Shown: positions 25,503 through 52,986, counted from the stretch's first letter. The stretch: DNA of 52,994 nucleotides from Oligoflexales bacterium (GCA_013215275.1 JABSRF010000004.1:1-52994), one strand, 5' to 3'. Translations and numbers: made by a program. The notes: a model not told the origin generated them from the letters alone.

Positions 25503-25974
25503 CTTCTTCAACTCCTGAGCCGATTTCAAGCAACACCTCTTTATGACAGGTTTCTAGCAGCTCAATAATAGCTTCAACTTTTTTCATTTTTGATAGTCTT
25601 GGCCCAAGCTTTACAGCAAGGTTTAACAGTTTTTCTTTAAATGCTAGGTATACCTTGGTTTGCTGGATCATCATTTCCTCAGCATCCAAAAGGTTGTCGG
25701 CTAGCTTCTCCTTCTCAATCCTGACTTTCTCGGTAAGCTCTCTGTAGTACCAAGCCTTCTCTTGAGTGAGGTTTAGGTCTGACTTTTCATCGTCGTTCGC
25801 CTTGATGTATATGTTCTTGATTACATCCAAGGTCTTGTAGAAGTTATTAGTACCCATTGTGTGGTGTACTTGAAGGTTTTCGATTCTTTTCTTAATTGTT
25901 CTAGGCTGCATTCCTGTGAACCTAGAAGCCTCTGAGAGGGTAGTAAATTCTGGAATCTTTTCTGCTTGTTTCAT
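25483..25974 (-). CDS. terminase small subunit-like protein
   Basis: A 163-aa protein with an N-terminal HTH (FTTLSEASRFTGMQPRTIKKRIENLQV), a helical middle and an acidic tail (GSGVEEDVDGED), like the Nu1/TerS recognition subunits. It precedes and overlaps terL. The N-terminal winged HTH would bind the packaging site and the C-terminus TerL. Confidence 0.82.
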   Translation of the reverse strand: MKQAEKIPEFTTLSEASRFTGMQPRTIKKRIENLQVHHTMGTNNFYKTLDVIKNIYIKANDDEKSDLNLTQEKAWYYRELTEKVRIEKEKLADNLLDAEEMMIQQTKVYLAFKEKLLNLAVKLGPRLSKMKKVEAIIELLETCHKEVLLEIGSGVEEDVDGED

Positions 25975-34826: not shown

Positions 34827-37586
34827 TTAGCTAGATATGGGGATTAGTTTGAGGCATTCAGCTTCAATTGTGCGGAATTTGCCATCGAGGACAATGACTT
34901 TCAGGTTGGGGTTGGACTTTAATTGCTTGCTGATACCAACGATAGCATCACGCTCAATCTTATCTTTGTGCTGGAAAATGTTATTTATAACTTCAACTTG
35001 AGTACCTGCAGGGAACACATCGGTGCCATATTGAGCTTCATCCTTAAGCGACCAAACTTTTGGCGGCTCACATTCTTCACGGTTTAAGATTAAATCAACT
35101 GGAATATACACGCTCTTGTCCAGTATTCCTGAGATCCTAATGGATTGCCGCTTTAAGGCCCCTTTGAGTCTTCCAAGGGAGTGATTCCAGTTTTTCCAAT
35201 GGGATTTTTCAAAAATTTTTGCAAGCTCCACATGCTTGCTGAATACAGCTAGGTACTCCTTCCCTTCTTTTTGATGGACCTTCATACCATACTTCTCCAG
35301 CTCCTTTTTGTGTGGTCCTTGCAGGATATTGACAATTGTATCCTCAAGGTGGCTAACTTGATCGCCAAAATCGCGTGTGTACCTTATCTTAGTGGTTAAT
35401 AGATGGTTTAAACATAATTCTTCATCCCGCTCAGTCTTGGAGAGATCCTTATCTGTAAGGCATTTCATCATCAAACATAGGTTTCTGGCAGCATCTTCCG
35501 TTGGAGGTTGATCCGATGTAAGACTAAAGTAGCTAGCTAATAACATTCCGGTTTGGTCTGCATAGCGTGAGGTATGCCCCATCTGTAAGATAACTTTCTT
35601 AAAGACTCTGTATCCCTCATTAATATTGTCAATTTGCTGGATAGCTCTTGCAAAAAGCCTAAGACCAAACTCGGGAGTGATTTTTTCGCAGGCAGCTAAA
35701 AGGTTAGCTTCATGAATTGGATCTGAGTTGTGACGTGCAAGTTCAAGTATGGAAAAGCGGCCCTTATCCTGAGCGCTTTTGAGGTGAACCTTGATCGAGC
35801 ATACTAAAGCAGTGACTTGGGGATCATAGTTTAATGCTGTACCACTTGTGGTTCCTTTATACATACGGGCGCTTGTAGGGCTCCATGATTGCCTCAGAAA
35901 CTCTATAATGCCTTGCTGGATATAGTTGTTAGATTCCGTCTCAAATTCATCGTATATGACCGGCAAAGAGTCACCTTGTAGGGTTTGCCTGATACCAGCA
36001 GCAGTGGTATCTTGTCCTGCTTTCATGAACCCATCTTCACCACCTAATGCGGGGGTCAATACATCGTTAAACAAAAGCGATTTTCCACACCCCTCACTGG
36101 CTGTAACCCATAGCCTGGGTCTTATAGGTAGCGCTCCTGATACTCTTGCAGTTGCAACCCATCCTAAGAACAAGGGGATTGAGTCGTAACACTCCCAAGA
36201 AAAGTGTTTGATAGCCATGATGAGAAGCTTGCATTCCTCCACTGTTAACGGTGTTGGTGGCTCTGGAAACGAAAACTGTGAAGCTGTGTAGGTGTAAGTT
36301 GAGTGGATGTCTGACATATCCTTCATGGTCCCATCCACTATGAGTTTTGAGCCTGTGTTCACTACCGTTGCTTTTTTATCCTTCCAGACACCAACACCTC
36401 TGACTTTGTGGGGTGAAAAGATCCCAGCATCCATAGACTCAGAAATGATCTGTGCTTTTGCTTGGTCCCAATAGACGCCACCGTCTGGTTTAGGGAACAT
36501 GACTTCTAGCTCATCAAGGGGAAAGGGTATTAATTCACATACGTTGCTGTTACTTACAGAGCGAGTTTTTTGTATTGTGTGATTCTTATAGCTATAGAAA
36601 TAATGGTAAGGACCATTTTGCCCAAGAGCCCTGTATGTGATTTTCTCGCCATCTTCTAAGCAAAGCTGGTCCTTTACCTCATCGAGCCCTTCTCTAACAT
36701 GAAGGTCGTTAAAATCGGTGGTAGCTTTTCCATCGTATTCCATAAATACGGGAAAAACCGGCTTGTTCATAAAGAGCTTAGATGCTTTTATAGCCTCGGT
36801 TTTGCCTGGGTTTCCTTCTGTAGCATGGTCATCATCACCAGCGACAACGAAGTTGACCTTGGGATACTCTTTCTTAAGAAGCTTTGAGACTTCCACAAGG
36901 TTATGTTTGGTGAAGGTCGCAACCACCACATTGCCTGTAGCTAGTCTAAGGCTTGCGCCCGTAGCCCATCCTTCGCAAATATAAACAACCTTTGATGGGT
37001 TAGTTAAATGACCGAATGTGTATATGCTACCAGTAAGCACAGTACCTAGGATCTGGTACTTACCGCCATCGGCAGAGATCCTTTGGCCACCCATGATTGA
37101 GCCTTTTATGGATCGGAACGGGATAAATAGCTTGTCACCGTCCATACAAAGGTCGAACGGCTCGATTAACTTTCGCTTTAAATAAGGATGGTCAGCGTTA
37201 GCCTTAGTCCCACGATCCAAGATCTTTTTAGCAGTCATCCTTGCTTCTTCGTTCAGCTTTTTCTTAGATTCATCGGCAACTTTCTTCGCTTTTTTCTGAG
37301 CGAACTTAATGTCTTCTTTCTCATTCCGGGAAAGCTTAACCTCTGGAGTAAAGGTATACTTTTCTTCATCACTGCTAGCCCAATCACCGAAGGTAACACA
37401 AAGGTATAACAAGCCTTTGGAGGTGGTTAGGTAGCTACCAATATACCAAGCTGAATTTCTGGACAAACCCTCACAACGTCTCAATTTTCCGTCCAAAATT
37501 GGATCATAGATGCTTACATCCCTAGAGGCTGCAAAGCGGATAAACTCTTCACGGAGGTCGTATTCGGTTCTCATATCTTCGCTCAT
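34827..37586 (-). CDS. TOPRIM primase-helicase
   Basis: A 919-aa replication protein. Residues about 150-300 are a TOPRIM primase core (VVYICEGWATGASL with E205; VVAGDDDHA at 249-255). A P-loop ATPase follows: TASEGCGKS at about 495-503, VIYDEFETES as Walker B, and a helicase-like C-terminal region. The layout is like phage alpha/P4-type or DUF927-type primase-helicases. No CHC2-type zinc finger is clear at the N-terminus. It overlaps the SF2 helicase stop by 4 bp and ends 10 bp from the iteron array, so it is the likely initiator or loader at that origin. Confidence 0.9.
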   Translation of the reverse strand: MSEDMRTEYDLREEFIRFAASRDVSIYDPILDGKLRRCEGLSRNSAWYIGSYLTTSKGLLYLCVTFGDWASSDEEKYTFTPEVKLSRNEKEDIKFAQKKAKKVADESKKKLNEEARMTAKKILDRGTKANADHPYLKRKLIEPFDLCMDGDKLFIPFRSIKGSIMGGQRISADGGKYQILGTVLTGSIYTFGHLTNPSKVVYICEGWATGASLRLATGNVVVATFTKHNLVEVSKLLKKEYPKVNFVVAGDDDHATEGNPGKTEAIKASKLFMNKPVFPVFMEYDGKATTDFNDLHVREGLDEVKDQLCLEDGEKITYRALGQNGPYHYFYSYKNHTIQKTRSVSNSNVCELIPFPLDELEVMFPKPDGGVYWDQAKAQIISESMDAGIFSPHKVRGVGVWKDKKATVVNTGSKLIVDGTMKDMSDIHSTYTYTASQFSFPEPPTPLTVEECKLLIMAIKHFSWECYDSIPLFLGWVATARVSGALPIRPRLWVTASEGCGKSLLFNDVLTPALGGEDGFMKAGQDTTAAGIRQTLQGDSLPVIYDEFETESNNYIQQGIIEFLRQSWSPTSARMYKGTTSGTALNYDPQVTALVCSIKVHLKSAQDKGRFSILELARHNSDPIHEANLLAACEKITPEFGLRLFARAIQQIDNINEGYRVFKKVILQMGHTSRYADQTGMLLASYFSLTSDQPPTEDAARNLCLMMKCLTDKDLSKTERDEELCLNHLLTTKIRYTRDFGDQVSHLEDTIVNILQGPHKKELEKYGMKVHQKEGKEYLAVFSKHVELAKIFEKSHWKNWNHSLGRLKGALKRQSIRISGILDKSVYIPVDLILNREECEPPKVWSLKDEAQYGTDVFPAGTQVEVINNIFQHKDKIERDAIVGISKQLKSNPNLKVIVLDGKFRTIEAECLKLIPISS

Positions 37587-40044: not shown

Positions 40045-40518
40045 ATGAACCAGGAATACAAAAAAATTGTACAAAATCAATTGAGACAATTCTTAAGAGC
40101 CTACCGTCATGCTGAAAACATCAGCGCAGAAGATGCAGCTTGCAAACTTGACCTGGAAATAACTAGTTATCGAAAGCTAGAAGGTCTCAAGCCTGAAAAT
40201 AGAGTAATAAGCAGCATCAGCTACCTAGAAAAGATTGCAAAACTAAGGGCTAAATCTCTCGTTGATTTCATCTCTTTCTTAACCCCTCAAGATTTGGTGA
40301 ATGGTTTAGGTAGAGGCTTATACCTATGGGAAAAAAATATTATTTCTGGCTTTGAAAAAATGAGTGTATCTAAGCGGAATAAATTTCTTAACTATCTCAG
40401 CAAGCTAGAGGAAGATGAGCTAGCTGATTTTTATGACCACTTAGTTGAAATGTCTAAAAAGCGATCTTCAAAAATTTCTTTCACAACTCGCATATTAAGG
40501 GAGCTAAAGGATGACTAG
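40045..40518 (+). CDS. XRE-family HTH protein, repressor candidate
   Basis: A 157-aa protein. Residues about 13-48 (LRQFLRAYRHAENISAEDAACKLDLEITSYRKLEG) have the XRE HTH pattern. The C-terminal 90 residues are helical, with no visible LexA-type Ser/Lys protease motif, so RecA-mediated autocleavage is unlikely. It is divergent from the early operon and overlaps the receiver gene by 8 bp. A CI-like lysogeny repressor controlled through the two-component genes is the most economical reading, but unproven. Confidence 0.72.
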   Translation: MNQEYKKIVQNQLRQFLRAYRHAENISAEDAACKLDLEITSYRKLEGLKPENRVISSISYLEKIAKLRAKSLVDFISFLTPQDLVNGLGRGLYLWEKNIISGFEKMSVSKRNKFLNYLSKLEEDELADFYDHLVEMSKKRSSKISFTTRILRELKDD

Positions 40519-40873
40519 AGTATTGGTAATCGAAGATGATCCACATTTTGGTGACACTCTTAAAATGAAATTGGAGATGGATGAAGGTGTAAAGGTTGAC
40601 GTTTACAGAGATTTCGAAACGTTCGCGGAAAAAGTCACATCACCACATCAAGTAAAAGAATACTCATGTGCTCTAGTCGACTACCAATTTGGTCGCTACA
40701 ACGCTTATCATAAAGGGTCAGCAATCTATCTACGAGAAGACCTTCAGTTTAAAGGAAAAATTTACCTGTGGACGCTAGAAAAACTTGAAGATGTAAAAGG
40801 AAAAGAGGACTACGACGCAATACTTCCCAAAAAATTCTATTCATTTTCCGCTCTTGAGAGGTTTGACAGTTAA
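40511..40873 (+). CDS. stand-alone response-regulator receiver
   Basis: A 120-aa receiver-like protein: VLVIEDDPH supplies the acidic pair, CALVDYQFG the phospho-acceptor aspartate, LWTLE the T/S position and ILPKKF the lysine. There is no output domain. The alpha4-beta5 side is shorter than usual. It probably relays phosphate from the next gene to control the overlapping XRE protein by contact. Start ATG at 40511 is coupled to the XRE stop (ATGACTAG). Confidence 0.8.
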   Translation: MTRVLVIEDDPHFGDTLKMKLEMDEGVKVDVYRDFETFAEKVTSPHQVKEYSCALVDYQFGRYNAYHKGSAIYLREDLQFKGKIYLWTLEKLEDVKGKEDYDAILPKKFYSFSALERFDS

Positions 40874-40875
40874 AA

Positions 40876-42678
40876 ATGAAATTCCTGCTTGTGCTCATTT
40901 TTTTGATTTTCTCTACTAGTAGCTTTGGCGTAACAATCACCCAAAAAACGGAGGATTTAAAGCTATCCGATGATCTTAAGATTCATTTAACCTCGGATAA
41001 ATTAGAAATTGAGGATGTTGTAAAACTAAACCCTGGAGAGTTTTCTAAGTACGCGAGTGGTAAGAGCTTAGGGTTCACCCAAAAAGTTCTCTGGGGTAAA
41101 GTGCCAATTAAAAATCGATCAGGTATCGAAGACTGGTTTGTTTCACTTTATGTCAGCCATATCGGGAGTTTCAGACTATATAAAGTGCAAGGCAAAAACA
41201 TAGAACTTGTCGAGCATGTAGGAAGGGATATTGACGCTCGTACTAGAGCTGTTAATCTAAAATATCCTACTATTCCAGTTGCAATTTCTAAAGACTTTGA
41301 TGGGTACTTTTATATACGAGCGGAGTCCGAAAATAACTTGACCATTGACCTTGATTTAAGGCGGATAAATTCTCTAATCACACATATGCATAAGGACGTA
41401 ATTTTCCAAGGAATCTACTATGGCTTTCTTATTGGTCTAATGCTTTATGTTTTGAGTTTATGGATTTTTGCATCCGAGTCACTTTATGGAAGATATGGTC
41501 TCTATCTTTTCGCAATGGCTTTACTACAACTTGCTGTTACCCATGATGGTTCTACCTATTTATGGCCAGGAAAAATTACTTTTGATAAAACTCTTGAGAC
41601 TTTCTCGGGAGGTTTAATTTTCGTCACCATGGGCAACTTTTTAAGAGAGTTTTTTAAGGACTATTTACAAAAAATGCCCTCAGCTATCCCAACTAATGCA
41701 ATCAAAGCTGGTGGAATTGTTTGTCTGATTTCAATACTCTCATCAAATTATGTACTCAACATTGTTGGAACAATAATATTGGTTGCCTGCTTTTTCCCTG
41801 CAGTAACCTGGTTCCTCTTTAAGGCATGGAGATCAGGTATTAAACCAGCACTTTTTATGTGGATCGGCTGGGGTGCAATGTCTCTTGGAATGTACTACCA
41901 GATAGTCATGAAGTCGGGATTTTTTTCTCTTCCATACATATATAATTTCTTCCAAGTTACTTGCATCATTGATTTCATTTTGTTTACCGCATCTATTTCC
42001 CTAAGGATAAGAGACATAAATATAGAATTAGCAGAAAAAAAAAGCTCTTTGCAGCTATCCAAGGGGTTATCAGCTATAAGCGCCGGGATAGCACACGAAG
42101 CTAAAAAACCATTACAGGCCGTTTCCAACGTGCTAGATGAATTATTAGAAATATCTGATACTTCCAACGCCTACCTCAAAAGATTGTTGGATAGTTCTCG
42201 CAATAAACTAAATCATTCTGGAGCTATTTTTGATGATATTCTAAAAATTGGCAAGCCTGACATGAAATTTCAAGAATTGGAGATAAGAAGACTCATTGAG
42301 GATGCTATCAACCTGTCTAAAATTTCGTACACTCCAAAGCTTGAAATAGAAGATTTTTCTTTAAAATGCGACAAAGAAAAAACGATTCGAGCCTTCACCA
42401 TTTTGATCGATAATGCCTTCGAGCATGGTGCCAAAGATGGTGAACCTGTTTTGATTCGAACTTGTGCCAAGAACAAGAAAACTTTAGAGGTAATCAACTA
42501 TGGTGTTTATCTCGAAAAAGATGAAATAAGAACCATTTTTGAACCCTGGGTAACTAAAGGAGGTAATGGCCTAGGTCTTTACCTCTTTAGCTCAATTGTG
42601 AAATCCCATAATTGGGAAAACCGTTGCCATTCGAGTAAAAAGGACAACTTCGTGGCTATGATTTTGACATTCAATTAA
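40876..42678 (+). CDS. 7TMR-DISM sensor histidine kinase
   Basis: A 600-aa kinase. It has a signal peptide (1-18), a periplasmic 7TMR-DISMED2-like domain to about 165 (LWGKVPIKNRSG...WFVSLYVSHIGSFRLY), seven membrane helices to about 370, a HisKA-type phosphorylation helix (SAGIAHEAKKPLQAV) and an ATPase domain with N-box (IDNAFEHG) and G-box (TKGGNGLGLYLF). The H-box follows HExxKPL rather than the usual HELRNPL. DISM sensors sense carbohydrates or small ligands. It follows the receiver by 2 bp. Confidence 0.93.
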   Translation: MKFLLVLIFLIFSTSSFGVTITQKTEDLKLSDDLKIHLTSDKLEIEDVVKLNPGEFSKYASGKSLGFTQKVLWGKVPIKNRSGIEDWFVSLYVSHIGSFRLYKVQGKNIELVEHVGRDIDARTRAVNLKYPTIPVAISKDFDGYFYIRAESENNLTIDLDLRRINSLITHMHKDVIFQGIYYGFLIGLMLYVLSLWIFASESLYGRYGLYLFAMALLQLAVTHDGSTYLWPGKITFDKTLETFSGGLIFVTMGNFLREFFKDYLQKMPSAIPTNAIKAGGIVCLISILSSNYVLNIVGTIILVACFFPAVTWFLFKAWRSGIKPALFMWIGWGAMSLGMYYQIVMKSGFFSLPYIYNFFQVTCIIDFILFTASISLRIRDINIELAEKKSSLQLSKGLSAISAGIAHEAKKPLQAVSNVLDELLEISDTSNAYLKRLLDSSRNKLNHSGAIFDDILKIGKPDMKFQELEIRRLIEDAINLSKISYTPKLEIEDFSLKCDKEKTIRAFTILIDNAFEHGAKDGEPVLIRTCAKNKKTLEVINYGVYLEKDEIRTIFEPWVTKGGNGLGLYLFSSIVKSHNWENRCHSSKKDNFVAMILTFN

Positions 42679-42697
42679 CGATTTTTAGGATATACAG

Positions 42698-43423
42698 ATG
42701 AAAAATAAAACTTTATTTGCTATCTTCTTTACTTTTGTGTTTATTTTCATTGGGGGCTTTTCTTACATGTTTACGGGACGCACATCGACTAATCAAAAGT
42801 TTGTAATTTTAGATTTTGATGGGGTAATTGCCGATTCCTGGCAAATTGCTTTTGAGACTATGAATTCTTATTCTGAGGAGTTTGGTTTTTTGCCAATGTC
42901 ATTCGACGCGGCATCAGACCTAACAACAAAAGAGATATTTAAGGCTTATAATTTGGGTTTTTTCGCTCAGTTTAGGCTAGCTAGTAAAGTAAAGAGTGCT
43001 TTACATGAGAACATGAATAAGATCGATGTTTTCCCAGAATTTTTAGCTATCTGTAAAAGGCTTTCAGAACAGGGTATAGAGGTTGCCATTATAACATCTA
43101 ACTCCAAAGAGAATGTCGATAAGTTTTTTAGTCATAATAAGATTGATTTTATAAAAATAGTTCATAGTACCACATCAATTTTTGGTAAGGATTCCGCGAT
43201 AAAGTCATTTTTAAAAGAGTATGGAGTAAAAAAAGAGAACGCTATTTATGTTGGTGATGAAGTAAGAGACGTCACAGGCGCAAAGAAAGCTGGCATCCCC
43301 GTGATGGCAGTTACTTGGGGGTTCGATCCCCGCGCGAAGCTATTACAAGAGGGGCCAGATTATTTGGTGCATGATTCAAAACACGCGCAAATGATTTTAG
43401 AAAAATACTTTCAACTGAATTAA
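42698..43423 (+). CDS. membrane-anchored HAD-family phosphatase
   Basis: A 241-aa HAD hydrolase. Motif I is FVILDFDGVIADSW (DxD nucleophile pair), motif II IITSNS, motif III GKDSAIKSF and motif IV YVGDEVRDVTGAKKAG; the pattern is phosphoglycolate-phosphatase-like. Unusually, residues 1-28 (NKTLFAIFFTFVFIFIGGFSYMF) are a signal anchor, which would put the catalytic domain outside the cytoplasm or tether it to the membrane. It is the fourth gene of the two-component operon, with AGGATA before its ATG. Confidence 0.88.
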   Translation: MKNKTLFAIFFTFVFIFIGGFSYMFTGRTSTNQKFVILDFDGVIADSWQIAFETMNSYSEEFGFLPMSFDAASDLTTKEIFKAYNLGFFAQFRLASKVKSALHENMNKIDVFPEFLAICKRLSEQGIEVAIITSNSKENVDKFFSHNKIDFIKIVHSTTSIFGKDSAIKSFLKEYGVKKENAIYVGDEVRDVTGAKKAGIPVMAVTWGFDPRAKLLQEGPDYLVHDSKHAQMILEKYFQLN

Positions 43424-43451
43424 AAATACCGTTTATACTGAGAGGATATTT

Positions 43452-44534
43452 ATGTTTAAAATTTTTATTAAATCGTTCACTGCATTTTTTATTTTCTTCT
43501 GTCTTTATACTTCTGCTGATGCGGTTGAGTTTGAGCAAGCTAATAAGTTCATACAGGAATCAATTGATTCAAGTCATGAATTCGGCATCCAATCTTATGC
43601 ATCAGGTGATATTCTGTTCACTAAGCAAATAGAGCTTTCAAAGCTCAGAAATTTTGTTATCAAAGCTACTGGTAAAGACCTTATCAAGTACGATCTAGGT
43701 CCAGAGTCATTTTCATCTCTGATAGCCCTTCGTGTTTTGCATGATGTAGAGCACAAAGAACTGAATGATAAGCTGATAAAGCTTGGTTATACGCTTGCCA
43801 CGGCTGAATCTTTAGAATTGCCCAACAGAATTCATTTCTTTCACAATAACACCGATTTTGCTGCAGACATTGATGCAACATCAATTACTGCAGTTGCCCT
43901 TTATAAATCAGGTTTGATCTCTGATGATGAACTTATTCAATATGCTAAAGAAGTATTGAAAAGCAGACCAGAGGATGGTGATTATAAAGACCTTCTCCAG
44001 GTTTACTGGGAAGATGGAGCCGAGCCCAACCGAGGAATTAAGTTTGATCCGGTAGTAACGGCTAATGCTCTTTATCTTATCAAAACGGCTCAATCACTGG
44101 GGCTTGGTGTAGACGATCGAGTCATTGAAAAAAATATTAATTTCATAGTGAGCCATCTTCAGAGTGGAGAATACAAAAATGGGACAAGGTATTATCCACT
44201 GCCCGAGATATTTCTATATTTTTCATCACTGCTCTGTGATTTTAAGGAATTTTCAAAAGTCTTAAAACCTATGATTTTTGAAGCTATGTCTAGCTACCTT
44301 ACTTCAGAAGTCAGCCCTTTAGAAGCATCCCTCAGAATTTTAGTAGCTAAACAAGTAGATTTGGACGTTGATCTAAAACCACTTTCCCTGAGCCTACGTT
44401 CTTCTTTAACAAATCAAGGGTGGCAAGCTGGGCCATTTTTTAAGCTTGGTAAGAGTTCCATATTTTTTGGATCAAACACAATTACTTCAATATTTGGCCT
44501 TAAGGCAATTTACCTCTTAGATGAAAGAATTTGA
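43452..44534 (+). CDS. secreted protein, possible alpha/alpha-toroid (terpenoid-cyclase-like)
   Basis: A 360-aa protein with a signal peptide (FIKSFTAFFIFFCLYTSADA). The mature part is helical with pairs such as DFAADIDATSITAVALYKSGLISDDELIQYAKEVL and FDPVVTANALYLIKTAQSLGL, and ends NQGWQAGPFFKLGKSSIFFGSNTITSIFGLKAIYLL. This resembles the repeating helical hairpins of prenyltransferase/squalene-cyclase-like toroids. No DxDD catalytic motif is clear (ADIDATS is nearest), so enzymatic activity is uncertain. AGAGGA precedes the ATG. Confidence 0.55.
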   Translation: MFKIFIKSFTAFFIFFCLYTSADAVEFEQANKFIQESIDSSHEFGIQSYASGDILFTKQIELSKLRNFVIKATGKDLIKYDLGPESFSSLIALRVLHDVEHKELNDKLIKLGYTLATAESLELPNRIHFFHNNTDFAADIDATSITAVALYKSGLISDDELIQYAKEVLKSRPEDGDYKDLLQVYWEDGAEPNRGIKFDPVVTANALYLIKTAQSLGLGVDDRVIEKNINFIVSHLQSGEYKNGTRYYPLPEIFLYFSSLLCDFKEFSKVLKPMIFEAMSSYLTSEVSPLEASLRILVAKQVDLDVDLKPLSLSLRSSLTNQGWQAGPFFKLGKSSIFFGSNTITSIFGLKAIYLLDERI

Positions 44535-44535
44535 A

Positions 44536-45357
44536 ATGAGACACATTATAATAATAATTTCATTGTTGTTTTCTTCTGCCTCTTTTGCAGATTATCCGCT
44601 AAGTTTTAACAAAGCAGCCCCTCTACTACCTAAGCCTCATGGGAATGGTTATGCAAGTCATAGTTTTGATGATTCAACTAGTATATATGAAATTTCATCA
44701 ACTCATGCTGGCCCACAAGGAAGAATCTTAGATCTAGCATATCGAAACACAAGATTAAATAACGAAGGCCTAGACAAATTTGGTTTAACTCTTGGAGGAG
44801 TTATTCCTAATTCAAACGACGATTTGATAGCTTTTAAATCAATTATAGGTTTTGTTCATAGTAGAGGCTACTACGATCATACAGGGGAAATATTGGCAAC
44901 CTGGGTTAAAAATATAGGATCATATGACATTATTATACTAGGTGGCGGTTACAAATTCGTCTCAACTAAATTCAGTGATGCCTACCCTCTTATCGGTTAT
45001 AGAAGATATGTCAAAGGTAGATATAGTTTTGAAGCCATCCTTCCATCTCATGTTAAAGCAAGTCACGATCTCAATGACACCTTAGAAATTGGAGTTTTTT
45101 CTAATTTAGGTAGTGAACTAGTCTGTGTTGGTGAAAAAGAGATCTCGGACGGTGAATTACCCGATTCGGTTCTGGGCAAGTACCAAACTGTCAGAGTTGG
45201 TATTGAGTCAACTATTAAAGTTGCTGAAAACATAGAGTTTACTGCTAAATTTGGTCAATCCCTAGCTAGAAAGATAACTAAGGACGACAATAAGGTATCA
45301 AAGCTGGATGGTAATCAGAATTTCGCAGAAGTGGCTTTGAACGTATCTAAGTTTTAA
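44536..45357 (+). CDS. secreted outer-membrane beta-barrel-like protein
   Basis: A 273-aa protein from the ATG at 44536, directly after the toroid-gene stop (TGAAATG). MRHIIIIISLLFSSASFADY is a signal peptide; the rest alternates beta strands and turns (FGLTLGGVIPNSNDDLIAFKSIIGFVHSRGYYD, YDIIILGGGYKFVSTKFSDAYPLIGYRRYVKGRYSFEAILPSHV) and ends NFAEVALNVSKF, a terminal aromatic typical of barrels. No named family. It is the last operon gene and a probable surface partner of the secreted protein. Confidence 0.65.
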   Translation: MRHIIIIISLLFSSASFADYPLSFNKAAPLLPKPHGNGYASHSFDDSTSIYEISSTHAGPQGRILDLAYRNTRLNNEGLDKFGLTLGGVIPNSNDDLIAFKSIIGFVHSRGYYDHTGEILATWVKNIGSYDIIILGGGYKFVSTKFSDAYPLIGYRRYVKGRYSFEAILPSHVKASHDLNDTLEIGVFSNLGSELVCVGEKEISDGELPDSVLGKYQTVRVGIESTIKVAENIEFTAKFGQSLARKITKDDNKVSKLDGNQNFAEVALNVSKF

Positions 45358-45412
45358 GCTTCAGATAAACTCAAAGCCCCTTTCTTCCATTGGAGAAGTA
45401 AGTAAAAATTCA

Positions 45413-45967
45413 CTAAACCACATCAATCCCAAACAAAGTGGTAACTCGATCCTTTAGGCAGCCACAGGTTCTATCTCCAATAGATTCGAATAGAGCCTTG
45501 CAAATTATGCACTTGCGAATCTTAACTTCTATCGAATTTAGACCTGCTGCAGCCCTTGCTTCTTGAGTTTCACGAAGGGCAGCCTTATCTGGTTTGGATA
45601 GCTTTTTTATTGGCTGATGTTTTCCCTCTACATGGCTATACTCAGGCATATGAGAGCAAACATACTCCAAGATTCTTCTGCTAATAGCAGTCGCATATGC
45701 GTTTGATTCGTGTGTCTTAAATTCCTTCAAATTTGAGTATTTTTCGGCTGTTTCCTTGAGCTTTTCATCTGTCCATATTCGTTGTTTTGGCCTCACCATA
45801 TGAGAACAAACACTATCTAGAATATTAAGACGACTCGCATATTTATACGCCCCACTTGCCTTATTTTTGAACTCACCTATAGTTGAATACTTCAATGCTT
45901 CGATAGAAACAGCTTCTTTTGTCCATAGAAATTTCTGTTTATGTTGTTTGTTAGTTTCCATTTGCAT
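45413..45967 (-). CDS. CSHM-repeat DNA-binding-like protein, paralogue 1
   Basis: A 184-aa basic protein with two repeats of about 50 residues: WTKEAVSIEALKYSTIGEFKNKASGAYKYASRLNILDSVCSHM and WTDEKLKETAEKYSNLKEFKTHESNAYATAISRRILEYVCSHM. A C-terminal cysteine cluster (IRKCIICKALFESIGDRTCGC) may bind zinc. This module is found in phage and homing-endonuclease-associated proteins and is probably DNA-binding. A homologue lies at 46569-47123. Confidence 0.6.
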   Translation of the reverse strand: MQMETNKQHKQKFLWTKEAVSIEALKYSTIGEFKNKASGAYKYASRLNILDSVCSHMVRPKQRIWTDEKLKETAEKYSNLKEFKTHESNAYATAISRRILEYVCSHMPEYSHVEGKHQPIKKLSKPDKAALRETQEARAAAGLNSIEVKIRKCIICKALFESIGDRTCGCLKDRVTTLFGIDVV

Positions 45968-46045
45968 CACCGAGTCTTATAGGTTTCTAAATTACATTAA
46001 CTCTATAAACAGGTATATTAATCTGATTTTCAGTGATTTTTATGA

Positions 46046-46396
46046 TTAAATATGCTTCTTGACCACTTTCAAAAAATTTTCACTCGTAAACGGTTTCAAG
46101 ATAATCTCTAAAACATTAGTTCCATCTATTGCATCCCGCTTATCAGGGGGAACACCAGTGATTAAAATTAGCTTTGGAGTAATATTTTTTTCATTGAGAA
46201 TATTGAGGAACTTATACCCATCGATATAAGGCATTACAAGATCTAATATTACAAGGTCTGGCTTGTGAAGAAGAAGCAAAGACATTCCATCTTTTCCGTT
46301 ATCCGCAGACATTACGTCATATTCATTTTCCAATAATCCATTCAAAAAATTTAGCATTAATTTGTCGTCATCTATAACTAAAACTGATTTTTTCAT
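46046..46396 (-). CDS. single-domain response regulator (CheY-like)
   Basis: A 116-aa receiver: SVLVIDDDKLM (acidic pocket), DLVILDLVMPYIDG (phospho-acceptor aspartate), LILITG (T) and IILKPF (K), all in the usual places. No output domain. It lies between the two CSHM paralogues on the opposite strand from the two-component operon, so it may be a second receiver for the same kinase. No clear ribosome-binding site is seen before the ATG at 46396. Confidence 0.9.
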   Translation of the reverse strand: MKKSVLVIDDDKLMLNFLNGLLENEYDVMSADNGKDGMSLLLLHKPDLVILDLVMPYIDGYKFLNILNEKNITPKLILITGVPPDKRDAIDGTNVLEIILKPFTSENFLKVVKKHI

Positions 46397-46447
46397 ACCG
46401 ACTCGCAAAAGTTTGAAAGGAGTTGCTAGTCTTCATTATAGAACTTG

Positions 46448-46591
46448 TTGATTTTTAAGACCAGAGCGATCCAAGAGGCAATTGCGATCAAATCAAACTT
46501 CGGCGGAATTTCCAGTCACACTGATAAAGCAGCCAAACGTTATGAATCGCCGGACTTTGCATCAAAACTCAGATCACATCGAACCCAGTAA
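46448..46591 (+). pseudogene. possible 3' remnant of an unrecognised gene
   Basis: A 47-codon plus-strand frame (FKTRAIQEAIAIKSNFGGIS then SHTDKAAKRYESPDFASKLR and SHRTQ stop) reads like the end of a real protein and is more GC-rich than its surroundings. There is only a TTG start and it overlaps the downstream gene. I cannot name the parent family. It could be debris of an inserted element. Confidence 0.3.
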
Positions 46592-47123
46592 GCCTTGCCG
46601 TCGCAACTGATCCGCGAAAACAACCACATGACCTATCGCCAGTTGATTCAAACTCAATTTTGCAGTGCATACATTTTCTTATTTTAATTTCGATAGGCTT
46701 AGCCCCGATATTAATCCTGCTTCTATTAACAGCCTCTAACTCAGTACGAGACAATTTTGATAGCTTCTTAAATGGCTTCTTTCTTGGGTTTTGAAAGGTA
46801 TCCATATGCGAGCAAACTAACTCCAGCATCCCCTTTCTTTTTGCTGCATTATAGGCGTTAGAATCATTTTTTAAGAATTCTTGAGGGGTGCTAAATTGCT
46901 GTGCTACTTCTCTTAACGTATTTTCGTTCCACCTTCGATCTGGTAAAGGTGTTTTATCCATATGCGAGCATATTTTCTCCAGCATTTTATGCTTAGATGC
47001 ATAAGAATAAGCTCCAGAAGAGGATTCTCTAAAATGCCTTTTATGCTGATATTTTTGTGCTTCTTGTGTAACGGTATCTTCAGTCCATGATATTCTTTTT
47101 CTAGGGTGAGTATCCTTTTGCAT
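46569..47123 (-). CDS. CSHM-repeat DNA-binding-like protein, paralogue 2
   Basis: A 184-aa protein homologous to 45413-45967: repeats WTEDTVTQEAQKYQHKRHFRESSSGAYSYASKHKMLEKICSHM and WNENTLREVAQQFSTPQEFLKNDSNAYNAAKRKGMLELVCSHM, then IRKCMHCKIEFESTGDRSCGC. Repeat order and cysteine cluster agree with the paralogue, so the pair came by duplication or independent acquisition. Confidence 0.6.
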   Translation of the reverse strand: MQKDTHPRKRISWTEDTVTQEAQKYQHKRHFRESSSGAYSYASKHKMLEKICSHMDKTPLPDRRWNENTLREVAQQFSTPQEFLKNDSNAYNAAKRKGMLELVCSHMDTFQNPRKKPFKKLSKLSRTELEAVNRSRINIGAKPIEIKIRKCMHCKIEFESTGDRSCGCFRGSVATARLTGFDVI

Positions 47124-47218
47124 ATTTAAAACCACATTATTCTATTCGCAATTAATCCCATTAGTTCTGTAATTAGCAATAAATCAAGGCTCACTCAAGA
47201 GCCCAAAAAATGTATCGG

Positions 47219-48556
47219 TTAATCTGGAAAAGCATGTTTCCTTGGGGTTGTATTCCAGAAAGACAAAGCCCCCACCCCTCTTTTCATAGTCTCTTTTGCA
47301 AGCAACATGACAAGAGCTACGGCACTGAGCCTATAGAGAGCTTTTAAAACAAGGTGCATCCAATTTGTCTGGTATCTTTCCCCGAGCTCCGATTCAACCG
47401 CTGCTAACTTTGCACCTGCCTCATCCAAACTTTTCTTGGCTGGATCAAGGTGCTTAATCTTGTACCAGTTGTTGTGATAAACGTCAGAATTTTTATCTTC
47501 GTAACGAGCCTTCCTTTGCTCGTAATCGACCTTGGCAATATCGTAGGCTTCCGAAGCTGAGAAATGGATAGGATTTGCTCTCAGAGCCTCAGAAGCTAAA
47601 TCCCGCTGATTTGCTTGTGAGCCTGCCCATACGATAAGCACCTCGTAAGCAATTATTAACGCCGCGAATAATTTAGCCGAGCTCGACTTTGAAATCACGC
47701 TTAACGCCGAAAAGCCGATTGCCAGGCCGATTGCGCCGTAAGATGCTAACTCAGGGTTTGGGAACTTAAGTGATTGGTAGAGTGGTAGTGTTTGCTCCAC
47801 AACAAAGCAGCAAGCCAAGTATGCACAGTAGCCCAGGGCAAGGGCTGCTGGGAAGTTAGTTATAAATGCACCACCGTCTAACTGGGAGAGCTTTTGAAAA
47901 ATTCCTGTTAAAAAATCAGACTTACCTACAGTTACATTATCATCAACAGCGTCATTACTGCAAACCTTGGCTTGATTTCCTGCCGTATCCTTTGCTAGAT
48001 TATCGCCGTTAGCATTCGCGATCTCGCTAACGCTAGCCTGCTGCTCCAAGATCTTGGGTGCTGGAGCGGTGGGCTTAATACTTTCCCTTAAATCAACAAG
48101 ACAATCTCTTATCTCTAAAAGCAATTCGGCTTGATTTTGAATATTGTGGTTTTCGTTTACCTGATTGATACTTTCTTTGGAAGTATCCACAGACATTGGT
48201 TGCTCCAGGCAGTGGCTTTGGCTACTGCCGTTTGACTCATCACTTGCCACAGCGCCTGGGTTTGGTAAGCTTGGACTGTCGGATCTACTTAGCGTTTTTT
48301 CGATGGTCTGCTGCTCAGCTTTCGACGGTAGGGCAGCAGATTCGAACATAGAACTAACATTCCCAAACTGACTTTCTTTCTTCAATTGTCTTCTCCTCTT
48401 CTTTTGAGAATTGATACGATCCTTGTTTTGAGGATTGCTGCGATATGCACGATGATACTTCGCTTTTTTGGTTTGAGATTGCCCAGATAAATCAGGGGCA
48501 AATAGTCCACTCGCTTCCTCATCCCCATTGAATAGTCCTCCTTGTGCCATTGTCAT
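47219..48556 (-). CDS. large membrane protein co-translated with the replication protein
   Basis: A 445-aa protein from the ATG at 48556, which overlaps the primase stop (ATGA). The N-terminal 200 residues are polar and low-complexity (KYHRAYRSNPQNKDRINSQKKRRRQLKK is strongly basic). Membrane helices follow (about 250-340: AALALGYCAYLACCFVVEQ, ASYGAIGLAIGFSALSVI, LFAALIIAYEVLIVWAG) then a coiled coil and a last helix (LSAVALVMLLAK). No family is recognised. The basic N-terminus and membrane domain suggest tethering of replication or DNA to the membrane. Confidence 0.7.
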   Translation of the reverse strand: MTMAQGGLFNGDEEASGLFAPDLSGQSQTKKAKYHRAYRSNPQNKDRINSQKKRRRQLKKESQFGNVSSMFESAALPSKAEQQTIEKTLSRSDSPSLPNPGAVASDESNGSSQSHCLEQPMSVDTSKESINQVNENHNIQNQAELLLEIRDCLVDLRESIKPTAPAPKILEQQASVSEIANANGDNLAKDTAGNQAKVCSNDAVDDNVTVGKSDFLTGIFQKLSQLDGGAFITNFPAALALGYCAYLACCFVVEQTLPLYQSLKFPNPELASYGAIGLAIGFSALSVISKSSSAKLFAALIIAYEVLIVWAGSQANQRDLASEALRANPIHFSASEAYDIAKVDYEQRKARYEDKNSDVYHNNWYKIKHLDPAKKSLDEAGAKLAAVESELGERYQTNWMHLVLKALYRLSAVALVMLLAKETMKRGVGALSFWNTTPRKHAFPD

Positions 48557-48932
48557 TCGACTCCAGCCTCCAAACATGAAGTGAAAAATCTGTATGAATA
48601 ATTGCGCCTTCTAGCACAATACTTTGCGACTGCTTCTAGCTGCTCCCAAGGCCATGAATCCATCAGCCTCAAGAAACCAAATATGGATTTGGTATTGATT
48701 ATCCCTTGGCCCTTCTCGATTTGTGCCAATATCAACTGGTCAAATGCAGGTCCAACCTTTTGCGCCTTACGCCTGTAGGTAGAATTTAAGGACTTTGCTT
48801 TGTGCCACTGAGAGTTTGTGCCACCTTCAGTTTTTGTGCCTCTGCCCTTGAGTAGCTTGTACCCTCGGATGAATTGTGCCTTCTCGAAAAATTCTATGTT
48901 TGTGCCATCATCAACCACCTGGAGTTTGCGCC
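48542..48932 (+). repeat. cluster of TTGTGCC (GGCACAA) motifs inside the replication gene
   Basis: TTGTGCC starts at 48542, 48721, 48800, 48816, 48834, 48874 and 48900; the one-base variant TTGCGCC starts at 48602, 48760 and 48926. Seven exact 7-mers in under 400 bp is far more than expected, and they fall in different reading frames, so protein conservation does not explain them. GGCACAA is also the right half of the late elements at 9.5 and 21.1 kb. Candidate initiator-binding array or incompatibility locus. Confidence 0.6.
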
Positions 48933-50868
48933 CAATCCATGAGTCTCCGAGCCAATAGAAGTTGTCCTGATAGTTTACGTAACCATCACAGCGGACTTTC
49001 TTCTCTACCATGTCTGGGAATTTAAATGAGCTGAGATTCTCATGTGTTGTCTGGACTTTACCTGAGCAATTACTGTGAGCACACTCAACTTCCGATCCAG
49101 TCATTAATTCCTGGTCAAAGGAATCATTTTGTACATTAGGGGAGGCTTTTTCTCTCCCCAATTCCCTCACTAAACCTAGCATCCAGTTTATATTTTTAAG
49201 GTTCTCTTCAACTAATCTTGATAAATTAGGATTGTCAGCAAGTGACATATGCTTTTGGAGATCCAGGGCACGGTCCCTGAACTCCTTAATTACACGCTTG
49301 TCATCTTTGCTACGCTCCTCAAACTCAAGCTCGAAACCATGATACTTAGCAAACTTATCCACCACAGGATTACCCTGGAGCATTGACCGGCCCTTAACAA
49401 TCAACTTGCTTGGCTTTTCATCAAGAACCTTCAAAACCTCCTGTATTGCTGCAAGCTGCAGTTTGTACCCAGTGCCTTTTACAGACTGACTTGCGATAAT
49501 CTGAGTAGATGCATTTCCTGTCTCCAAAACTAACAGGCTCTTCTCATTACCCCTGCGCGTAAATGCCAGGGAGTAGTGGGGCTTTCGAGACCCCCCCAGG
49601 GGGCCTTCTGTAATATTTTTCGCTTCGCTATTTTCCCTTAAAGCCAATGGAATTTCTTGGCCAGCTCTGATTCCAAAAAGCTGTGGCTGGTTCCTATATA
49701 TAGAGGCAACAATTTTTGCTATAGACCTGCAGCTTCTTGAATCTTCATGGCCAGGGATCAGCCTAGAGTGAGCGTTTAGGCCTATCATAGTCTGGTGCTT
49801 CGAGTAGCCATGCCACTTGTAATAAATCGCGGCACTGGATAGCCAGGCATTGCGCTCTCCATCAAGCACTTCTTCTGGAAGCTTTAGATCCTTGAGGAAG
49901 GTCGATGCATACTCGGGATTCTCGATTAGCTTTAGGGCTCGCTCGATATCCCCATACTCTGGATTGATCCATAGCTCATAGCCCTCAGTACGTCCGAGGT
50001 AATTGACATTGAGCCATTTAGGTCGTGACTGGGGGCGCTTTACTAGAATATTGCGAAGGGTATCTTTAGATATTTCTGTCAGCTTAACCAGCTCACCCAT
50101 GGTGTAGCACTTAGTCTGGCCGAGGTTTTCGAACAGCTCCACGTACAAATGAGCCAAGCGAGCTTCGGTGGTCTTGTGTGGGTGAAGAATCTCATCCTGA
50201 TCTCTTTTAGCTGGTGGTCTGCATTCTTTTAGCTTGTTCGTAATAGCTAGGATCTCAGTGATTACATTGCGGCCTTCTCTTTTGATGAATGCATGAACAT
50301 CTTTGTCATAATAAAGCTGCCGCGCTTTGCTAAACTGCGAAACCTCATGGCGTCTAAAGTTGGGTAAGTCTCTAACAATACCGAGGGCTGACATATCAGC
50401 GCCTAGCCCATGGTGTTTCAACAATCTGACTAATGCTTCCTGTGCTTGTTGGGCAAGAAAAATGGTCTTGTGTGAACCATCAGTGAAGTCGCGCACGATG
50501 GGACTGATCGCAATTCCAAGGTGAATTCCTTTGCCACCTGTGCTACGAACGACGAACTGCGTATATATGAAGATCTCTGGATACTTCTTTTGGAGAAAGG
50601 TTAAGACCTTCTCCCAGTTTATTTCACCCTTCCTATCGAGCCATTTAAACTTGGTGTCTTTAACATCGATGTCTAAAGGAATACAGAACGGGACTCTAGT
50701 GCCATCAGGGTTCAACCAAGCCGAGCTAATATAGTCTGACTTAAAATGACGCCAGCCAGTGTATTCGCGGCTTATTATTTTAGATCCGTCTTCCTCTAAC
50801 CGTAGGATCTTTTTAAAGGCATGGTAGCCGCCGGTGTAGCCTTCTTTTGCAAGCGCTGCTAATTGCAT
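48553..50868 (-). CDS. replication protein: AEP-type primase fused to a degenerate IstA-like transposase
   Basis: A 771-aa protein. Residues 55-200 resemble an archaeo-eukaryotic primase (IPLDIDVKD with D66/D68; VVRSTGGKGIHLGIAIS). Residues 335-395 look like PriCT (GERNAWLSSAAIYYKWHGYSKHQTMIG...). Residues 430-565 follow the RNase H fold of IS21 IstA (NPVVDKFAKYHGFELEFEERSKDDKRVIKEF) but lack the DDE residues. Residues 625-765 match the IstA C-terminus (VRCDGYVNYQDNFYWLG..., then IINTKSIFGFLRLM...LEAVAKYCARRRNYSYRF). It probably initiates plasmid replication. Confidence 0.75.
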   Translation of the reverse strand: MQLAALAKEGYTGGYHAFKKILRLEEDGSKIISREYTGWRHFKSDYISSAWLNPDGTRVPFCIPLDIDVKDTKFKWLDRKGEINWEKVLTFLQKKYPEIFIYTQFVVRSTGGKGIHLGIAISPIVRDFTDGSHKTIFLAQQAQEALVRLLKHHGLGADMSALGIVRDLPNFRRHEVSQFSKARQLYYDKDVHAFIKREGRNVITEILAITNKLKECRPPAKRDQDEILHPHKTTEARLAHLYVELFENLGQTKCYTMGELVKLTEISKDTLRNILVKRPQSRPKWLNVNYLGRTEGYELWINPEYGDIERALKLIENPEYASTFLKDLKLPEEVLDGERNAWLSSAAIYYKWHGYSKHQTMIGLNAHSRLIPGHEDSRSCRSIAKIVASIYRNQPQLFGIRAGQEIPLALRENSEAKNITEGPLGGSRKPHYSLAFTRRGNEKSLLVLETGNASTQIIASQSVKGTGYKLQLAAIQEVLKVLDEKPSKLIVKGRSMLQGNPVVDKFAKYHGFELEFEERSKDDKRVIKEFRDRALDLQKHMSLADNPNLSRLVEENLKNINWMLGLVRELGREKASPNVQNDSFDQELMTGSEVECAHSNCSGKVQTTHENLSSFKFPDMVEKKVRCDGYVNYQDNFYWLGDSWIGRKLQVVDDGTNIEFFEKAQFIRGYKLLKGRGTKTEGGTNSQWHKAKSLNSTYRRKAQKVGPAFDQLILAQIEKGQGIINTKSIFGFLRLMDSWPWEQLEAVAKYCARRRNYSYRFFTSCLEAGVE

Positions 50869-50999: not shown

Positions 51000-51893
51000 T
51001 CAGGTCTTTGTATCTGATGATTCAAATTTCACTAATTTAAGCTCGCTCAAAACGCTTGATATAAAGGAAATTTGGTCTTCATTAAACTTCTTGTTATTGC
51101 AATATTCATAAAACTTTTCAGTCCTTAAGGGGAATTTATTTTTCCGAACATCTTTTTTTTCTGTCGGGCTGCCCGACACATTAACTAGAGCCAATAATGC
51201 TTCAATAACTTCGGAGTCAGTCATTTTCTTTTTTGCTATATGACCAAGCTTTCGAATGTTTATATCATGCTCCTTAATTAATTGTTTTGCATCATTTGGC
51301 CATTTTGCAATTTTCAAAAGCTCGACGACATACCCTCGATGCTTATTCAATATTCGCGCAACACCTGTTGTCGTTTCATTCAACCTTTCCTTTAGGTTGA
51401 GAACTGACTCAGCAAGTTCTAGTGGCTTTAAGTTTTGCCTTACCAAATTTTCAGCTAAACGAGCCAAATGAATATCTTGCTCGTTTTCTGAATATATCAG
51501 CTCAGCAGGACAGGTTTCATAACCTAGTTCTTTTAGAGCCATTATTCTTCTGTGACCAGCTACACATAAAAAAGGTTTTGAAGTGGATAGACCCAACGTT
51601 AAAACAGGGCGCTGTAAAAGCCCCTGTTCCTTTATCGATTCTCTCAAACCAACAAAATCTGCCGTAGAAGTATCAATCTCTCGACTGTTTTGAGATAAAT
51701 CAATCTCGTCAATTCTTACACTAGGTAGAGAACCTTTCCCTTTTTGCTGAACCTTTTTAAAAACTTCTTTTACAGAAAGATACCATTCAGCTTGCGCATC
51801 CACTTTTTTATGATCTTTAAACTCTTTTTCTACCCCTTTTACAGTTGATGCAATTTTACTAGCTAATTTAGACTTTGCTTTGCTTTTTTTCAT
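51000..51893 (-). CDS. parB: ParB-family partition protein
   Basis: A 297-aa ParB: a basic N-terminus, the ParB/Srx CTP-binding domain (VRIDEIDLSQNSREI...GLRESIKEQGLLQRPVL...CVAGHRRIMALKELGYETCPAELIYSENEQDIHLARLAENLVRQNLKPLELAESV) and the HTH domain (TTGVARILNKHRGYVVELLKIAKWP). GHRR and ENxxRxxL are the nucleotide-binding signatures. A 17-bp palindrome inside the gene is the likely parS. It overlaps the parA stop by 4 bp. Confidence 0.95.
   Translation of the reverse strand: MKKSKAKSKLASKIASTVKGVEKEFKDHKKVDAQAEWYLSVKEVFKKVQQKGKGSLPSVRIDEIDLSQNSREIDTSTADFVGLRESIKEQGLLQRPVLTLGLSTSKPFLCVAGHRRIMALKELGYETCPAELIYSENEQDIHLARLAENLVRQNLKPLELAESVLNLKERLNETTTGVARILNKHRGYVVELLKIAKWPNDAKQLIKEHDINIRKLGHIAKKKMTDSEVIEALLALVNVSGSPTEKKDVRKNKFPLRTEKFYEYCNNKKFNEDQISFISSVLSELKLVKFESSDTKT
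51162..51178. promoter_or_regulatory. parS: candidate parS site 2, inside parB
   Basis: TGTCGGGCTGCCCGACA, identical to 94-110. Encodes part of VSGSPTEK of ParB, outside the conserved domains. ParB spreading from a site inside its own gene is common. Confidence 0.55.
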
Positions 51894-52831
51894 AACCCAT
51901 GCATCTCCTCTTCAAGAACTAATGAGGGAACAGGCATTTTTTCTAAAGATGGTGTATCTCCGAGTTCTTTCCTAAATCTTTTCAAGGTATCCTTGTCCAA
52001 AGCTGGAGTATTTGGAGATCTTCCTCTTCTATTCAACTTAAGCTCTGGAAGAATAAGTTTGGCAAGCCTTGTATATGCTTCACTTATAGGGAGCTTCGAT
52101 TGCCCGTGTACAATTGGATTTTCCATCGCACAAGATGTTGGTACTGCCTTAGAAAAGGGTACGGTTCCTAATAAAGGCATACCGACCTGCTTTCCTAACT
52201 TTTCAATTGCTTCCAAAAACATTCTATGGACTGTTATTGACTTATCGTACTTGGTCACGAAGCAACCTAAAACATGGAGCGTTGGGTTTAGCTTGTCTTT
52301 TATCATTTTCACATTTTTGAACATAACGCGAAGTGCATCAAGACTATCCGCTTCAGCAAAGAGTGGAAGAACATAGTAGTCTGCAGCAACCATTACATTT
52401 GTAAAAGTTAAATCTAAGGAAGGGTGGGTATCGATCACGATAATATCAAACTCTTCCCTTGCCTTTATCAACCAGTCTCTCATAATCCCATGAGAACCGG
52501 GCTGAGCTAGAAAAGAGTTATTAAATTCACTAAAATCTTGATCAGCTCCAACAGCGTAAACATTGTCGAACTTGGTTTTCAACCAGATCGACTCTGCTGC
52601 TTTCTGCTCGAAAAACGCTACGGAGATTGTTTTCTCAAGATCTATAGCCTGTTGCTTTATTCCAATCTGAGCGCTTGAATTCCCTTGATAGTCAGCATCA
52701 ACAAGCAGGACTTTCAAACCAAGATTAGCAAACGCACAACAAAGATTTGTACTAGAAACAGATTTTCCAACACCACCCTTTTGATTAGCCAAGGCAAGAG
52801 TAACGCCTTTAATTTTTTTAGATCTCTTCAT
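51890..52831 (-). CDS. parA: ParA-family partition ATPase
   Basis: A 313-aa type Ia/Ib-like ParA with deviant Walker A KGGVGKS, DADYQGNSS (A' motif) and Walker B FDIIVIDTHPSLD. The ATG at 52831 has AAGGAA upstream; the track start at 52861 adds ten residues. It lacks the long N-terminal HTH of type Ia enzymes. With ParB and the palindromic sites it forms the segregation system that shows the element is maintained as a plasmid. TATAAT near 52915 (minus strand) may be its -10. Confidence 0.97.
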   Translation of the reverse strand: MKRSKKIKGVTLALANQKGGVGKSVSSTNLCCAFANLGLKVLLVDADYQGNSSAQIGIKQQAIDLEKTISVAFFEQKAAESIWLKTKFDNVYAVGADQDFSEFNNSFLAQPGSHGIMRDWLIKAREEFDIIVIDTHPSLDLTFTNVMVAADYYVLPLFAEADSLDALRVMFKNVKMIKDKLNPTLHVLGCFVTKYDKSITVHRMFLEAIEKLGKQVGMPLLGTVPFSKAVPTSCAMENPIVHGQSKLPISEAYTRLAKLILPELKLNRRGRSPNTPALDKDTLKRFRKELGDTPSLEKMPVPSLVLEEEMHGL

Positions 52832-52986
52832 AATTCGATTCCTTAACGGCTTGGCATGCAAGCATCAATTAACTATTATCGTATTACTTAAATCATATTT
52901 GGTAAAGTCGATTATATAATTAATCCTTGATAAACAAAGTCAGCTAAAACCCTCAAAATAAATTTCAACCATCTAACTTACTATAA

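Follow-up and report, generated by a model that had tools for sequence, protein, structure and literature searches.

Primases of the AEP family are joined to a variety of C-terminal partners, and the part of the family survey considered here names helicases, helix-turn-helix (HTH) domains and an O-like domain among them, with no mention of transposase parts (PMC5862659). The same part raises the question of how unwinding and the helicase are supplied to AEP-PriCT replication proteins (Reps) that have no helicase domain (PMC5862659). In the IS21 transposition system, recognition of the transposon ends falls to two N-terminal HTH domains of the transposase IstA (PMC10122671). The beta-barrel of its catalytic subunits docks into IstB, whose ATPase activity is thereby stimulated, and this stimulation is strongly lowered when the barrel region is mutated or removed; IstB itself is an AAA+ paralogue of the DnaC/DnaI helicase loader (PMC11208146). 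Here, we describe a predicted Rep from an Oligoflexales bacterium that brings these two worlds together. The window, i.e., the whole stretch of DNA analysed, corresponds to one entire contig (52,994 bases) from a draft assembly (GCA_013215275.1, JABSRF010000004.1:1-52994) and carries phage structural genes together with a parA-parB-rep cassette; thus, it is an Oligoflexia phage-plasmid. The rep open reading frame (ORF; 48553..50868, minus strand, with the coordinates as originally predicted) encodes 771 amino acids comprising, in order, an AEP primase, a PriCT-1 domain, a probable, dead RNase H/DDE-like core, an IstA barrel and an IstA tail; all Rep domains given below are accordingly on the minus strand.

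The N-terminal assignment of the original prediction, an AEP primase, holds up well. A profile built on residues 1-215 with seven relatives aligned to 19 Prim-Pol/PriCT AEP primases with an hhalign score of 37.5, compared to a maximum of 16.4 among 30 column shuffles, and the register of this alignment places D66-x-D68 (motif I, 50665..50673) on the D-x-D and S109TGGKGIH116 (motif II, 50521..50544) on the TGGxGxH of the known primases, defining an AEP primase-like domain at residues 1-210 (50239..50868). D66 and D68 are invariant in an alignment of four sequences, and H116 is changed to alanine in two relatives (L005 and L018), so that some members of the family are perhaps inactive as primases. 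No AEP model in Pfam matched Rep or its relatives, and sequence searches of the PDB with Rep and with the primase profile yielded chance matches only. The PriCT-like middle is likewise borne out, as a PriCT-1 domain at residues 331-399 (49672..49878): Pfam PriCT_1 was found in 5 of the 8 relatives (best 5.8e-5), and profile alignment gave hhalign scores of 45-49 versus at most 20.8 in shuffles. A weak HTH-like stretch occupies residues 254-280 (MerR match, E=0.19).

The C-terminal half resembles IstA. Compared with 22 full-length IstA proteins from Oligoflexia genomes, Rep residues 401-771 were collinear from the second catalytic region through the C-terminal tail, with an hhalign score of 68.4 (E about 1e-8), against 24.1 for the best of 60 shuffles, 15.9 for the reversed sequence and 23.7 for the best of 18 other ORFs of the window. 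Each of the two terminal elements is significant when taken alone, namely, the beta-barrel at residues 614-690 (48799..49029; E=6.5e-5) and the helical tail at residues 691-771 (48556..48798; E=5.2e-6). The Pfam family of IstA barrels, Mu-transpos_C_2, matched residues 615-678 with E=1e-3, below the family cut-off. In an IstA-guided AlphaFold model, both barrel and tail were good (tail pLDDT mostly 64-91), and the barrel, in this model guided by IstA rows, superimposed on the solved IstA structure 8q4d with a VIA Z of 8.8 (1.2 Å over 54 residues); among the structural neighbours of the model, IstA ranked ahead of TnsB and MuA. A full-length MAFFT alignment of Rep with IstA fragments was misaligned and was not used for folding. 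No IstA match was obtained in residues 1-423 (hhalign 19.8, noise), where the two N-terminal end-binding HTH domains are absent. Thus, an architecture of AEP, PriCT-1, IstA barrel and IstA tail in a single polypeptide appears highly likely, and the barrel and tail proposed from the sequence, like the quoted stretches D66-x-D68, S109TGGKGIH116, NPVVDKFAKYHGF and VRCDGYVNYQDNFYWLGDSW, are all present. The possibility of an assembly chimera was considered and rejected, because a second rep copy of the same genome, 86% identical, located on contig C97 and again preceded by parA and parB, carries the identical domain join.

The stretch ahead of the barrel, in which the RNase H fold of IstA had been recognised, fares differently by the two approaches: by sequence alone, residues 426-600 scored 18.5 against IstA, which is noise, whereas structure prediction speaks for the fold, at low confidence. 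AlphaFold modelling of residues 424-771 from the single sequence and without IstA input (mean pLDDT 39, with about 50 across the initial 90 residues) gave the RNase H order of elements, i.e., strand-strand-strand-helix-strand-helix-strand-helix. In Foldseek, retroviral integrases made up the great majority of the top PDB matches of this unguided model (best E 1.7e-3, probability 1.00), and all 50 of its 50 VIA rows were integrases or IstA, with Z up to 8.5 for integrase cores (2.5-2.8 Å, 83-84 residues) and 6.3 for IstA 8b4h. In the IstA-guided model, this part was poor (pLDDT under 45), so that the case for the core comes from the unguided, low-confidence model; furthermore, the Z level barely exceeds what unrelated models can reach, and we therefore grade the RNase H/DDE-integrase core at residues 425-530 (49279..49596) as quite probable. 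When aligned with DDE enzymes, the three positions of the catalytic triad are T437, K492 and I527, all substituted, in agreement with the replaced DDE residues of the original prediction, and the first is threonine in the C97 copy, too. Judging by these substitutions, the core is catalytically dead. The ratio of nonsynonymous to synonymous substitution rates (omega), computed between the window and C97 copies, is low in the AEP (0.065), PriCT (0.075), barrel (0.086) and tail (0.043) regions and higher in the core (0.48) and the linkers (0.5-0.6). Thus, the core is loosely constrained, whereas barrel and tail are kept under strong purifying selection, with dS of about 1.1 in the latter two, a stretch on which overlapping repeats impose a constraint of their own.

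These repeats are ten same-strand, iteron-like copies of TTGYGCC within 391 bp (48542..48932, plus strand; starts at 48542, 48602, 48721, 48760, 48800, 48816, 48834, 48874, 48900 and 48926) that extend from the 3′ part of rep into the beginning of the adjacent gene. Nine copies lie in rep, where 1.5 are expected and no more than 5 occurred across 1000 synonymous-codon shuffles; the C97 rep has 6 versus 0.96 expected, a number reached in none of 1000 shuffles. Six sites are common to both copies, despite near-saturated synonymous sites in this region. The rep genes of the other relatives yielded no iteron-like clusters; in the relative from a bog, TCGCAAA is present five times, but scattered. 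The cluster is a probable iteron-type origin inside the gene of its own initiator, an arrangement for which lambda O is a known precedent, and it supports the reading of Rep as an iteron-type initiator, which we consider fairly likely.

Homologues with both halves exist: in addition to the C97 copy with the full join, three divergent relatives combine the primase half with the barrel. The barrel was detected in the relative from a Pigmentibacter plasmid (Pfam E=2.7e-4, hhalign 1.8e-5), in the G004 relative (Pfam 2.7e-5, hhalign 2.9e-7) and in that of the bog metagenome-assembled genome (hhalign E=2.1e-5, with a short assembly gap at the start of the barrel). In these three, only about 55-105 residues separate PriCT from the barrel, too few for the core, which is therefore lacking. 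The nearest annotated relatives, and the only annotated records among the close ones, are two plasmids of Pigmentibacter ruber (Silvanigrellales), with further relatives in Oligoflexia genomes, which suggests that the genome under study belongs to this class; scans of genome contigs, viral contigs, phages and plasmids with Rep revealed no close relative outside Oligoflexia, and searches of 58, 96 and 383 genomes for relatives of the primase half gave none that lay clearly beyond it. No part of an eight-row family alignment was sufficiently conserved for use in scanning contigs. The genome under study encodes a third AEP-PriCT Rep (L018, G000:C261), 27% identical and without an IstA barrel, so that there are possibly three such replicons in it. 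The tree of barrel plus tail has long branches and is compatible with a single capture or with several.

What, then, does the transposase-derived part contribute to an initiator? The original prediction held that the end-binding apparatus of a transposase had been exapted. This mechanism is probably wrong, because the ends are bound by the HTH domains, which are absent here, and what remains is the part that docks IstB; the better inference is that the exapted part may be an ATPase-docking module (or one of DNA or protein contact by the barrel). We propose, with a probability of roughly 0.45, that Rep is an iteron-type initiator-primase that reuses the ATPase-docking module of a transposase, with the helicase delivered through a loader of the host. 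Acting as the initiator of the plasmid phase of the phage-plasmid, Rep would bind the TTGYGCC iterons within its own gene, open the DNA and prime, as ColE2/RepE-type Reps do, with AEP and PriCT-1; barrel and tail would serve not for recognising transposon ends but for docking a DnaC/DnaI-like AAA+ loader of the host, a relative of IstB, and the docked loader would deliver the helicase to the origin, with the dead DDE core being a relic or, at most, a spacer. A search of the genome for IstB (PF01695) found none on the window contig, as had been noticed originally, and a family search of the genome found no other IstA barrel over the cut-off. The host does encode, on contig C102 (5138-6070), a DnaC/IstB-like AAA+ protein (IstB_IS21, E=2.2e-14), and thus the genome provides a potential partner from the appropriate family; 53 of 54 Oligoflexia genomes contain related loader-family proteins, and no DciA was detected in the host genome. 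That Rep binds the host loader and docks it is a tentative proposal. More doubtful is the extension to the class, in which initiators of Oligoflexia mobile replicons would have captured the AAA+ docking module of IS21 and recruit a DnaC/IstB-family loader to an iteron origin, possibly through a single ancient capture followed by loss of the core in most lineages.

Several points weigh against this proposal. The docking step is one that we only infer, and no counterparts in the barrel of Rep could be assigned to the residues through which IS5376 IstA contacts IstB (Tyr343/Arg345). Co-occurrence with the loader is uninformative, because loaders are found class-wide, with or without such a Rep. 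The phage-plasmid has a TOPRIM primase-helicase of its own that could drive replication. Neither Pfam nor hhalign showed a barrel in L018, L016 or L020, which means that the family can do without the module. Finally, because the non-catalytic barrels of IS21 contact the transposase and the ends, a role in DNA contact is possible. Indeed, the barrel and tail might be a module for binding origin DNA or for oligomerising Rep, without any ATPase docking: in IS21, the barrels of the structural subunits touch transposon ends and neighbouring subunits (PMC11208146, PMC10122671), and RepE/RepS-type Reps, in the part of the survey considered, hold an HTH DNA-binding domain at the C-terminal position (PMC5862659), so that its replacement here could bind DNA as well. 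Against this stands the fact that the sequence-specific end binding of IstA resides in the HTH domains that Rep lacks, and DNA could instead be bound by the HTH-like stretch at residues 254-280; we regard this explanation as somewhat less likely than docking.

Two further explanations deny the transposase half a function or an origin in IS21, and both appear very improbable. If this half were a functionless leftover, in decay, from an IS21-like element that had inserted into rep, the loss of catalytic residues and the loose evolution of the core would be expected, but not an omega of 0.04-0.09 in barrel and tail (where, to be sure, the overlapping iterons add their own constraint), nor the recurrence of the barrel behind PriCT in three further divergent relatives; moreover, the genome offers neither a neighbouring IstB nor another IstA barrel over the cut-off, and the remnant reading is thus disfavoured. 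Chance or convergence upon a generic SH3-like barrel followed by helices could be invoked given that identity to IstA is only 13-18%, that the Pfam barrel score falls under the curated cut-off and that the RNase H segment is not significant by sequence. However, barrel and tail both reach significance individually and are collinear, the shuffled, reversed and unrelated controls all fail, and in the single-sequence model the region directly ahead of the barrel matches DDE integrase cores.

The rest of the window is in keeping with a phage-plasmid. In the cassette, rep is the third gene, following parA (51890..52861, minus strand; Pfam AAA_31, E=4.6e-40) and a ParB-family gene (51000..51893, minus strand; HTH_ParB, E=3.4e-6, with ParB_N as well as PHROG and TIGR00180 matches) on the same strand. 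Elsewhere, the contig encodes a tailed phage with components of a contractile tail, and its genes include terminase, portal, capsid, tail sheath and baseplate J, along with SSB, the TOPRIM primase-helicase and an SF2 helicase; no terminal overlap was found at the contig ends (1-52994). The end of rep is overlapped by 25 bases by an ORF of 452 amino acids without a family match (47219-48577, minus strand), and in the C97 copy an ORF beginning MFGGW likewise overlaps the end of rep. Repeat-containing genes lie beside both cassettes, at 46569-47135 (minus strand) in the window, where the gene is matched by phrog_20046 (unknown function), and at L066:346-1371 (units of ~141-147 bases). The TOPRIM primase (34827-37586, minus strand; 919 amino acids, Walker A ASEGCGKS at residue 496) is the phage's own primase-helicase and distinct from the AEP Rep. 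In the frame of the large terminase subunit (GpA; 22425-25529, minus strand), residues 340-410 hold homing-endonuclease/LAGLIDADG domains; they precede the stretch that best matches the terminase ATPase and probably mark an intein. Genes for a histidine kinase and response regulators of two-component signalling and for a HAD hydrolase (40045-46408) are likely cargo.

If the barrel indeed docks a loader, it would represent an evolutionary and mechanical bridge from the targeting of transposition to the loading of helicases. Even without docking, this is an unusual exaptation, in which the non-catalytic end of a transposase is kept, while the catalytic core decays, inside an initiator that carries its own iterons. 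The original prediction knew of no replication protein with such an architecture; our literature search for a primase-transposase replication protein found none either, which, being confined to open-licence papers, is weak evidence, and in the same literature we found no protein described as using the transposase side of the IstB interface in replication.

Among known systems, the primase half of Rep is closest to the PrimPol-PV1 supergroup (RepE/RepS and PrimHYQ, with ColE2 Rep more distant), with which, going by the part of the survey considered, it shares the D-x-D motif, a TGGxGxH-like motif, PriCT-1, residence on a mobile replicon and the lack of a helicase domain in the protein (PMC5862659). 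Unlike those proteins, it has diverged to the extent that no Pfam AEP model matches, and, unlike RepE/RepS and PrimHYQ as covered there, it has no C-terminal HTH but an IstA-derived dead core, barrel and tail instead (PMC5862659). With IS21 IstA (IS5376; PDB 8b4h and 8q4d), Rep shares the barrel, the helical tail and, probably, the RNase H core, with the order of these elements preserved, but it lacks HTH1 and HTH2, its triad is substituted, no istB lies next to it, and the module is fused behind a primase. Finally, MuA and TnsB offer a parallel in that regions C-terminal of their DDE core contact an AAA+ partner, MuB and TnsC, respectively; unlike these active transposases, however, the module described here is part of a replication protein.

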